This document shows positions 22,348 through 38,921 of a stretch of DNA of 64,000 bases, in pieces. The notes beneath the pieces were generated by a model. That model made no database searches, was not told where the DNA came from, and was given only the letters and a program-made list of their open reading frames with translations. Position 1 is the stretch's first letter; the number at the start of each line of letters is the position of its first letter. Source of the DNA: Alkaliphilus sp. B6464 (GTDB lineage: Bacteria > Bacillota > Clostridia > Peptostreptococcales > Natronincolaceae); NCBI RefSeq assembly GCF_018141165.1, contig NZ_CP058557.1:1488001-1552000 (forward strand), in the 5' to 3' direction. The position numbers were made by a program, and so were the translations under genes.

Positions 22348-22370
22348 AAAAAAGAATGGGAGGAATAAAA

Positions 22371-23753
22371 ATGAGTACAACTTTATTAGTAGTGATTAAT
22401 ATCGTTATAATGGCTGTCATTATTTATGGACTTATGACGATGAAAAAGATGAACTTTTCTTTTACAACTAGGGTACTTTTAGCACTTGCTGTTGGAATAG
22501 TATTTGGTGCTATATTACAGTTAATCTATGGGGATTCCTCTGAAGTAGTATCTAAATCTAATAGCTGGTTTGCTGTTGTAGGTACAGGGTATGTAAGATT
22601 GCTTCGTATGATAGTAATTCCACTTATATTTATATCTATAACTGGTGCTATAGTTAATCAAAAATCTAAAAATTTAGGAAAGATGGCGATTCTAATACTT
22701 GCTGTACTTTTAATTACAACTGCCATATCAGCATTTATAGGTGCTGGTACTGCGAAAATTTTTAATTTATCTGCTGAAGGATTACAATCAGGTGAAAGTG
22801 AGCAAAAAGCTTCTGAAAGATTAGAAACTAATCTTGAATCATTCCAAGCAAAACCGATACAAGAGCAAATTGTAGAAATAATACCTACAAATCCATTTTA
22901 CTCTATGACGGGTCAAGGTAGCTCTGCTACATTATCAGTTGTAGTATTTGCAGCTTTTCTAGCTATCGCTACTCTGGGAATTAGGCATTCTAAACCAGAA
23001 TCTGCAGAGCTGTTTTCAAACATTATTAAGGCACTGCACGATGTTATTATGCGTATGGTTACTATGGTATTGAGATTAACTCCCTATGGAGTATTAGCAT
23101 TAATGACTCGAATAGTTTCATCTAGTAATTTTAGTGAAATATTGAGATTAGTTCAGTTTGTAATAGCATCTTATGTAGCTCTAATAATTATGTTTGTAAT
23201 CCATCTAATAATTTTATCAATATTTGGATTAAATCCACTTATCTATCTGAAAAAATCTGCAACTACTTTAATGTTTGCATTTTCTTCAAGATCAAGTGCG
23301 GGTACGCTTCCTCTAAATGTAGAAACTCAAATAGATAAGTTAGGTGTGTCTGATGGGCATGCAAATCTATCTGCATCACTTGGAACTAGTATCGGCCAAA
23401 ATGGTTGTGCAGGTATATATCCTGCAATGTTAGCAGTTATGATAGCTCCGACCTTAGGAATCAATCCTATGGCTCCAGCATTTTTAATTAAGCTAATTAT
23501 TATAACAACTCTAGCTTCATTTGGTATTGCAGGGGTTGGCGGTGGCGCTACATTTGCAGCACTAACAGTTTTCTCAGCCATGGGATTACCTGTAGGCTTA
23601 GTCGGACTTTTAATAGCTATAGAGCCACTAATAGATATGGGTAGAACAGCACTTAATGTAAGTGGATCTATGTTATCTGGATTATTATCTAGTAAATTTA
23701 TGAATGAATTAGACCTAGAAAAATATAATAGTGAAATTAAAGTAGATGCTTAA
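22371..23753 (+). CDS. tcyP: L-cystine/dicarboxylate-type sodium symporter (TcyP family)
   Basis: This 460-residue membrane transporter is of the glutamate/cation symporter fold. The phrases SSAGTLPLNVETQIDKLGV, GTSIGQNGCAGIYPAMLAV and IEPLIDMGRTALNVSGS are typical of the TcyP/YdjN cystine uptake branch. The N-terminal long helix and a soluble loop (~residues 135-175) are also in place. ATG 22371 follows GGGAGG; an upstream ATG at 22356 overlaps that site. Its neighbours include a small selenoprotein and a cysteine-synthase remnant, consistent with sulfur or selenium amino-acid metabolism. Confidence 0.85.
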   Translation: MSTTLLVVINIVIMAVIIYGLMTMKKMNFSFTTRVLLALAVGIVFGAILQLIYGDSSEVVSKSNSWFAVVGTGYVRLLRMIVIPLIFISITGAIVNQKSKNLGKMAILILAVLLITTAISAFIGAGTAKIFNLSAEGLQSGESEQKASERLETNLESFQAKPIQEQIVEIIPTNPFYSMTGQGSSATLSVVVFAAFLAIATLGIRHSKPESAELFSNIIKALHDVIMRMVTMVLRLTPYGVLALMTRIVSSSNFSEILRLVQFVIASYVALIIMFVIHLIILSIFGLNPLIYLKKSATTLMFAFSSRSSAGTLPLNVETQIDKLGVSDGHANLSASLGTSIGQNGCAGIYPAMLAVMIAPTLGINPMAPAFLIKLIIITTLASFGIAGVGGGATFAALTVFSAMGLPVGLVGLLIAIEPLIDMGRTALNVSGSMLSGLLSSKFMNELDLEKYNSEIKVDA

Positions 23754-23803: not shown

Positions 23804-24088
23804 GTGAAAGTTACTATTGATAACAAGACTTTAAAATTTTTAAAGTCTAAAGGAGAAAGTGCATTAACAATTTGGATAAAAGGATGCTCAAGTTGAGGCA
23901 CTGGTGAGCCACAACCATCGGTCTCGATGGGAAAACCTCAAGACACAGATGAGTACTATATGTATAAAGTCGGAGATATAGAGGTATATGTAAAGTCTGA
24001 TGTCAAGGCTAAAGATGATGAAATTACAGTTAAATATATAAAGATTTTATGGACAGAAAAATTATCTGTTGAAGGGATTTTAATTTGA
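23804..24088 (+). CDS. Small CC/Se-motif selenoprotein (in-frame UGA = selenocysteine 31)
   Basis: Reading from GTG 23804, five bases after AGGGGGGATT-type site, gives 30 codons ending WIKGCSS, then TGA (23894-23896), then 63 more codons to a second TGA at 24086. The protein reads GCSSU-GTGEPQPSVSMGKPQ around the Sec, with a C-x-x-U pair and a conserved-looking GKP. This matches what I recall of a small HesB-like family in which Cys-Cys and Cys-Sec forms alternate. A good bacterial SECIS hairpin follows the UGA. Standard gene callers miss it. It is probably a redox or metal-binding protein. Neighbours are a cystine symporter and a cysteine-synthase fragment. Confidence 0.8.
23894..23940 (+). 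promoter_or_regulatory. Bacterial SECIS element for UGA 23894
   Basis: CCATCG (23915-23920), loop GTCT, and CGATGG (23925-23930) form a perfect apical stem 18 bases beyond the UGA. The apical GGTCT resembles the SelB-binding loop of E. coli fdhF. The UGA itself, as TGAGG (23894-23898), can pair with CCTCA (23936-23940) to form the basal stem, again as in fdhF. Confidence 0.8.
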
Positions 24089-24295
24089 AGGAAATGCCTA
24101 GAAAAGATAAATGCTTTTCTAGGAGCTTTAAAAGCTCAAGATATGTTAGGGAAGGATAGTGTAGTTGTAACTATATTCTCTGATGATAGTAAAAAGTATT
24201 TAAGTACGGATTTAATGAAAGAAGAACCAGTTAAAGAGAAATTTTTATCTCAACATATTGAGTTGATTAGTGTGAAGGCTTATAAAATGAAGTAA
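24089..24295 (+). pseudogene. Cysteine synthase C-terminal remnant, in frame with the selenoprotein
   Basis: After the second TGA the same frame stays open for 68 codons. From about residue 10 it reads [19 protein letters not shown] then [20 protein letters not shown], which is clearly the C-terminal tail of a PLP-dependent cysteine synthase (compare the ERYLST tail of cysK at 51876). The catalytic portion is absent. The junction lies inside a perfect hairpin (24097-24123). There is no ribosome-binding site or start, so it is a dead fragment unless the second TGA is also read through (RKC after it would make U-x-x-C). Confidence 0.7.
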
Positions 24296-36712: not shown

Positions 36713-36794
36713 AAAAAAACTCCTACAGATACAATTATAAAATTGAATCTGTAGGAGTCATTAGCCTTTGGCAATTATGGTGAACTCCATCACC
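36713..36794 (-). promoter_or_regulatory. Fluoride (crcB-type) riboswitch
   Basis: On the minus strand the leader reads GGTGATGGAGTTCACC at its 5' end (36794-36779), then ATAATTGCC...GGCTAATGACTCCTAC. These are the diagnostic elements of the fluoride aptamer: GGnGAUGGnGUUCnCC, the following A-rich junction, and the GCUnAUGACUCCUAC segment. The last part overlaps the 5' arm of a terminator, giving a classical off-switch: fluoride binding would keep CTCCTAC from pairing with its terminator partner. Confidence 0.93.
36719..36758 (-). terminator. Riboswitch expression-platform terminator
   Basis: On the minus strand ACTCCTACAGAT pairs with ATCTGTAGGAGT and is followed by TTTTTTTG. The 5' arm overlaps the conserved CTCCTAC of the fluoride aptamer, so binding and termination compete. 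Confidence 0.88.
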
Positions 36795-37030
36795 TTATAT
36801 TATGTTTTATTTTAATTACACTATACTTTAAATTTATATATAGGTCAAGATAAAGTATTTGGTAAGAATATTATAGATAAAAATCTTATAATGAATATAT
36901 AAATATGTTATTATTGTTTTTAAGTAGATTAGGAGGATGAGTAACAGTTAATAAAACGTTGTAAAACTTTATAAGGCTATTTTGAATTTATATAATATTT
37001 GCATTATAATAAATTCAAGAGGTGATATAA

Positions 37031-38767: not shown

Positions 38768-38921
38768 AATCACCAACAAGATAACGCTGATATGTAGGAT
38801 TCGTTGTATCCGAATTTACGCTCTCGGACTACTATATCAAACTAAAGTAGATTAACTTCGGTTATTCAAAATAGGGTAGGTTGAACAGAGAATTAAACAA
38901 AATCTTTAGAGTTTTATAAGG
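38768..38921 (+). ncRNA. Probable omega RNA of TnpB (scaffold)
   Basis: The ~150 bases between the tnpB stop and the right-end TTTATAAGG contain no ORF and are strongly structured. GATATGTAG (38789-38797) can pair with CTACTATATC (38829-38838) around smaller stems, and GGTTATTC... follows. For TnpB systems the guide scaffold comes from the 3' end of tnpB plus this flank, with the guide being the host sequence just outside the element. Here that would begin at 38922 (TTTTGGCAACGG...). Boundaries are inferred. Confidence 0.5.

Follow-up and report, generated by a model that had tools for sequence, protein, structure and literature searches.

A probable CxxU selenoprotein of the CC/Se-motif family, paired with a TcyP-type cystine symporter gene in Alkaliphilus sp. 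B6464

The iron-sulfur site of the carrier IscA comprises three cysteines, Cys35, Cys99 and Cys101, and we know of no disulfide reductase with an IscA fold. NCBIfam holds a family of small proteins, NF041239, "CC/Se motif family (seleno)protein" (Moor_selen_rel), in which the placement of selenocysteine (Sec) varies among members: CU, UC, UU, CxxU, or cysteine only. Table 1 of a 2026 review lists this family with the motif CxxU and the term hypothetical protein, citing Zhang and Gladyshev (2008) and Peng (2016) (PMC13188914). The passages of PMC2398784 and PMC5029168 examined contained no description of the family, and the word "Moorella" is absent from both main texts. Neither the family nor its CxxU form is therefore new, and the protein described here is a further member, whose TcyP-linked CxxU clade is distinct from the CU, UC, UU, CC and other CxxU forms. 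It is encoded in a stretch of 64,000 nucleotides of Alkaliphilus sp. B6464 (contig NZ_CP058557.1, positions 1,488,001 to 1,552,000 of the forward strand), hereafter the window, in which the following features, numbered from its first letter, were delineated.

22356 to 23753, plus strand: TcyP-type cystine symporter gene (SDF family), 50 nt upstream of the selenoprotein gene, named from its match to E. coli TcyP.
23804 to 24088, plus strand: gene of the very probable CxxU selenoprotein, 94 residues and a stop, NF041239 member by family score, with purifying selection past the TGA in comparison with a sister genome (G004).
23894 to 23896, plus strand: UGA codon 31, almost certainly read as selenocysteine, in the motif G-C-S-S-U-G, with Cys or Sec aligned in homologues.
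23915 to 23930, plus strand: candidate bacterial SECIS hairpin with a 6-bp stem and the loop GUCU, -8.8 kcal/mol when a flanking base on each side is included.
24115 to 24295, plus strand: 3' stub of a cysteine-synthase-like gene, from comparison with G004.

The window also holds a fluoride riboswitch (36745-36803, minus strand) and a RAGATH-18 RNA (38821-38892, plus strand), both over their Rfam gathering scores.

An earlier, sequence-only reading of this DNA had proposed a GTG-started frame with a strong ribosome-binding site, and the GTG at 23804 indeed lies behind AGGGGGG; as it had also described, codon 31 is an in-frame TGA (23894-23896), followed by 63 sense codons and a terminal TGA at 24086-24088. 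When the internal TGA is translated as Sec, a 94-residue protein with the motif KGCSSUGTGEPQPSVSMGKP is obtained, whose sequence contains a single Cys (Cys28) and a single Sec (Sec31), neither of them C-terminal. That the terminal TGA (24086) might encode another Sec was considered and ruled out, since the gene of G004, which starts with ATG, ends there with TAA. The protein scores 56.2 bits with NF041239, against a curated cut-off of 40, residues 1-91 aligning on positions 1-90 of the 91 of the profile, and the signature-loop pair is present as C28 and U31, the Sec31 column being that of the Cys or Sec of CC, CU and UC members. This score, together with an IscA/HesB-like predicted fold (see below), bears out the earlier guess of a small CC/Se-motif (HesB-like) family. 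The gene had been called unannotated, which is correct for gene callers ignorant of Sec and incorrect for NCBIfam, where the family has a model. Elsewhere the window protein found no match in Pfam at E up to 1, although Fe-S_biosyn was touched by 4 of 18 family members (best E 0.053); the HesB-like selenoprotein model TIGR01911 gave neither a match at E up to 1 nor a score over its cut-off, a PDB sequence-profile search returned nothing at E up to 10, a plasmid search no match, and a search of genome contigs no confirmed match. The sole match of a viral scan (L078) covered query residues 27-40 only and was rejected as chance after the surrounding DNA had been read. Very probably, this is a genuine selenium-containing mini-protein that ordinary gene finders truncate at the UGA.

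Decoding of UGA 31 requires weighing against the plain alternative that the TGA is a true stop, as in standard translation, which ends at codon 31; the gene would then yield a peptide of 30 residues or be a pseudogene, with a downstream frame open by chance. The 3.86 Mb genome (G000, 2 contigs), which had been proposed for a check of selA, selB, selC and selD, does encode Sec machinery: selA, selB, selD and tRNA-Sec were all found in C1:2392215-2403369, each over its family cut-off, and selD itself carries an in-frame TGA. Compared with G004, pN is 0.027 and pS 0.156 after the UGA (6 synonymous and 4 non-synonymous differences), versus 0.110 and 0.057 before it (1 and 8), the counts being small on both sides (10 differences past the UGA, 9 ahead of it). 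Judged from these differences, the frame past the UGA is under purifying selection, as the proposed test of downstream conservation had anticipated, and small though the counts are, conservation is stronger past the UGA than ahead of it, which would be surprising behind a true stop. The NF041239 match, which spans residues 1-91, also argues against a stop, as do homologues with Cys in the Sec31 column. Reading continues through position 31 in homologues with Cys or Sec aligned there, and the two are exchanged within well-supported clades: CGKU in L064 and L065 versus CGKC in L055 (support 100/97), and SCU in L056 versus SCC in L071 (100/96). Three findings had been named as damaging to a selenoprotein, namely absence of SelB or SelC, homologues that all stop at the TGA, and lack of conservation downstream, and none of them was encountered. 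A true stop is, in our view, highly improbable. From the machinery, the hairpin and the coding conservation, we infer with very little doubt that SelB with Sec-tRNA reads UGA 31, aided by the hairpin at 23915-23930.

This hairpin, CCATCG-GTCT-CGATGG, had been noticed in the sequence-only reading and is the sole match in the window at up to 1 mismatch. It had been placed directly after the TGA, but 18 nt separate the TGA from the stem and 24 nt separate it from the apical loop. A basal TGAGG/CCTCA pairing (23894-23898 with 23936-23940), also proposed, forms when 23894-23940 is folded, but with a z of only -1.56, and another structure is preferred in 23890-23945; this pairing is weakly supported. 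The likeness to the SECIS of E. coli fdhF holds for the GGUCU string near the apex, which is common to both, but not further, as fdhF pairs differently and the string is not conserved in G004, which has GGUUU. The published bSECIS model, as described in the review, has a loop of 3-9 nt, a stem of 4-16 bp, a G in the first two loop positions, a spacing of 16-37 nt and a minimum free energy of -7.5 or lower (PMC13188914), and the window hairpin lies within every limit stated there (24 nt, 4-nt loop, 6 bp, -8.8). Among the 1910 TGAs of the window, 22, including codon 31, are followed by a hairpin within this model, and 11 by one at least as stable. Since the stem lies in sequence that codes for PSVxxGK, this stretch was recoded synonymously with local codon use: 6 of 5000 recodings fell within the model and none of 5000 was as stable as the native sequence.

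Across the family, a strict scan, which admits perfect helices only and whose misses were not taken as absence of a SECIS, fitted only 11 of 40 TGA positions and 4 of 18 CxxU members, both of which we counted against the preferred reading. It fitted none of 8 KGUC-type members, and chance fits arose at 2 of 10 Cys codons in Cys members (same hairpin of L027). For 30 CU and CxxU members, the shared 18-nt register gives pairs in 132 of 180 cells, versus 98 of 180 after a slide of -3 and 68 of 120 after a slide of +3. For 11 Cys members (two Cys rows without a register having been dropped) the corresponding figure is 30 of 66, and for 9 UC members 23 of 54, and in both groups a slide of +1 pairs better (40/66 and 37/54, respectively). 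Nine rows picked for pairing in the same register have A-U or G-C at pair 3, U-A, G-C, A-U or U-G at pair 4, C-G or U-A at pair 5, and G-C, U-A or A-U at pair 6.

In the bacterial family of the window (f1), matches at E up to 0.001 were found in 14 of 20 genomes, over the cut-off in 11 of 20, and none in G005; the genus has two genomes besides that of the window, and G005 is one of them. Order-wide, 64 of 198 genomes match the window protein, and in another bacterial family of the same class (f42) 43 of 100 match, these 100 being a sample of a larger group. The genome of the window itself holds a second member, L002 (G000:C1:392193-392465), with the motif SCU, and no ars, TcyP-type or cysteine-synthase gene was found in the 15 kb around it (context L080). 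A further gene, HesB-like and interrupted by an in-frame TGA (L102, G000:C1:1461015-1461263), lies about 27 kb before the window and falls below the TIGR01911 cut-off.

The SDF transporter encoded directly upstream of the selenoprotein gene shares 47% identity with E. coli TcyP across 451 columns (382 bits), a protein annotated as cystine/sulfocysteine:cation symporter, versus 119 bits with GltP and 100 bits with DctA (25-26% identical). The same gene pair occurs in G004 and in eight f42 genomes (G565, G635, G626, G591, G642, G588, G623 and G583, with gaps of 9-24 nt), the gap between symporter and selenoprotein gene being 9-50 nt over all pairs. The clade of the window has 11 members, drawn from two bacterial families, and in 10 of them the symporter lies directly upstream; for the eleventh, G481, no TcyP-type gene was found within 13 kb of context. 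The nine transporter-linked rows of the tree and G481 form one branch of 10 rows (support 97/80), G591 having been assigned to the clade because its protein is 59% identical to that of G565. This tree comprised 65 rows, its deep forks being mostly unresolved, and left out L012, L013, rows with internal TAA or TAG, rows of fewer than 70 residues, and L186 (G591).

Besides the window, the transporter was present in 9 of 72 contexts (53 + 19), all of them of this clade, and a TcyP-type gene in none of the 62 compared contexts outside it; some contexts were cut by contig ends, and those of f42 were taken for 20 of the 43 matching genomes, mostly best matches. CxxU members outside the clade, namely those of seven f42 genomes with CSSU and of G030, G086 and G091, are without the symporter, and the CxxU motif alone does not predict the transporter. 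The symporter and the selenoprotein gene probably lie in one transcript. Taken jointly, the identity of the product as a Sec-decoded NF041239 member and its pairing with a TcyP-type importer constitute our main reading, to which we assign a probability of about 0.85. In the parts of the literature searched, no report of this link or of the arsenic link described below was found; both words co-occur in PMC12724342, which concerns nickel and copper toxicity, and either link may be in Haft and Gwadz (2023). These functional leads look new.

Structural prediction relates the protein to IscA. A model made with 6 sequences reached a pLDDT of 89.9 and a pTM of 0.79; Foldseek returned IscA, SufA and HesB-type matches for it (best E 1.9e-4), and the best VIA matches were IscA and SufA (Z 9.0, 2.9 A over 88 residues), rows 1-10 being IscA, SufA or HesB-type, with Z from 9.0 to 5.2 and the next row at 2.4. 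The predicted fold is thus IscA/HesB-like. In profile comparison, 18 family members scored 36.8 with 12 HesB-like selenoproteins, versus 19.8 for the best of 100 column shuffles and 15.4 for the reversed profile; the UC group alone scored only 22.6. The HesB-like selenoproteins of TIGR01911 share the predicted fold, and Sec31 of the window protein stands one column before the HesB Sec. Unlike the IscA/HesB iron-sulfur carriers, the window protein has neither the three-cysteine site nor the C-terminal Cys pair, and judging from its sequence the only redox residues are Cys28 and Sec31, as a CxxU pair.

From the gene pair and this motif only, we tentatively propose a role in the thiol/selenol reduction of imported cystine. 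The selenoprotein would work in the cytosol on cystine imported by the TcyP-type symporter; the Sec31 selenolate would attack the cystine disulfide, and Cys28 would then resolve the selenenyl-sulfide, with release of cysteine. The adjoining cysteine-synthase-like gene has been lost in the window genome, which we counted against this best explanation: G004 has at this place an intact cysteine-synthase-like gene of 340 residues, below curated cut-offs, whereas a 910 bp deletion relative to G004, bounded by copies of the 9 bp repeat TTTTCTAGG, has left a 3' stub in the window. The genome of the window retains other cysteine-synthase-like matches. The remaining stub lies in frame behind the terminal TGA of the selenoprotein gene.

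The tight, conserved gene pair with a transporter would also suit a redox sensor, or a partner protein, through which TcyP activity follows the thiol state of the cell. We regard this as rather unlikely, any contact with TcyP being hypothetical and the G481 member of the clade lacking a nearby TcyP-type gene.

The main rival to cystine reduction comes from other clades of the family, next to which arsenic or heavy-metal genes are found, so that metal(loid) binding would be suited as well. All 8 KGUC-type members (L014, L015, L017, L018, L025, L026, L028 and L040; contexts L088, L112-L116, L146 and L147), spread over 7 genomes, are located in arsenic-resistance loci, with ArsR and ACR3 in seven of these loci and ArsC alone in the eighth. 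Their ars gene sets vary (ArsR, ArsC, ACR3, ArsD, ArsA), and in context L114 the end of arsR shares 4 bases with the UC gene. The eight rows form one clade (support 99/99), the weakly placed UU row L022 standing elsewhere in the tree, next to ArsD, ArsA and ArsR genes of its own (context L177). No ArsR, ArsC, ACR3, ArsD or ArsA match at E 1e-8 was found in the other 44 of the 53 contexts, nor any ars gene in the contexts examined of GGGUC-motif members outside the KGUC clade (L151, L157, L165). Among CC members, L090 lies near ArsM and a heavy-metal ATPase, and L089 near a heavy-metal ATPase. No ArsC was found beside the KGUC member in L115, L116 and L147, where the KGUC selenoprotein might stand in for it.

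With these neighbourhoods and the predicted IscA/HesB fold in its favour, the window selenoprotein may instead be a carrier of the IscA-like kind, which binds and hands over a soft metal(loid), a persulfide or selenide, or an iron-sulfur cluster. We consider such a role possible, if doubtful, for a protein with one Cys and one Sec that lacks the C-terminal Cys pair of IscA, and no arsenic or heavy-metal reference gene was found in the 16 kb context of the sister (L079).

Some further observations concern individual relatives. L022 (G006) has two consecutive TGA codons (GUUSAY) and is possibly a double-Sec protein, while the KGUC-type L040 (G003) has an extra in-frame TGA near its C terminus and could be a decaying copy. 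In three genomes (L168, L169, L170), a CU-type group has as neighbours, judging by eye from their sequences, a gene resembling dihydroxy-acid dehydratase and a set of ABC transporter genes for branched-chain amino acids.

Returning to the TcyP-linked selenoprotein as a candidate cystine reductase, it is conceivable, though we advance it with considerable reserve, that IscA-fold selenoproteins were recruited clade by clade to transport modules, as a CxxU cystine reductase at TcyP and as a KGUC arsenic factor at ArsR-ACR3. The match between clade and neighbourhood, CxxU with cystine import and KGUC with arsenic export, would suggest two specific, testable roles for the family, and may also explain the retention of several paralogues by anaerobes of this group.
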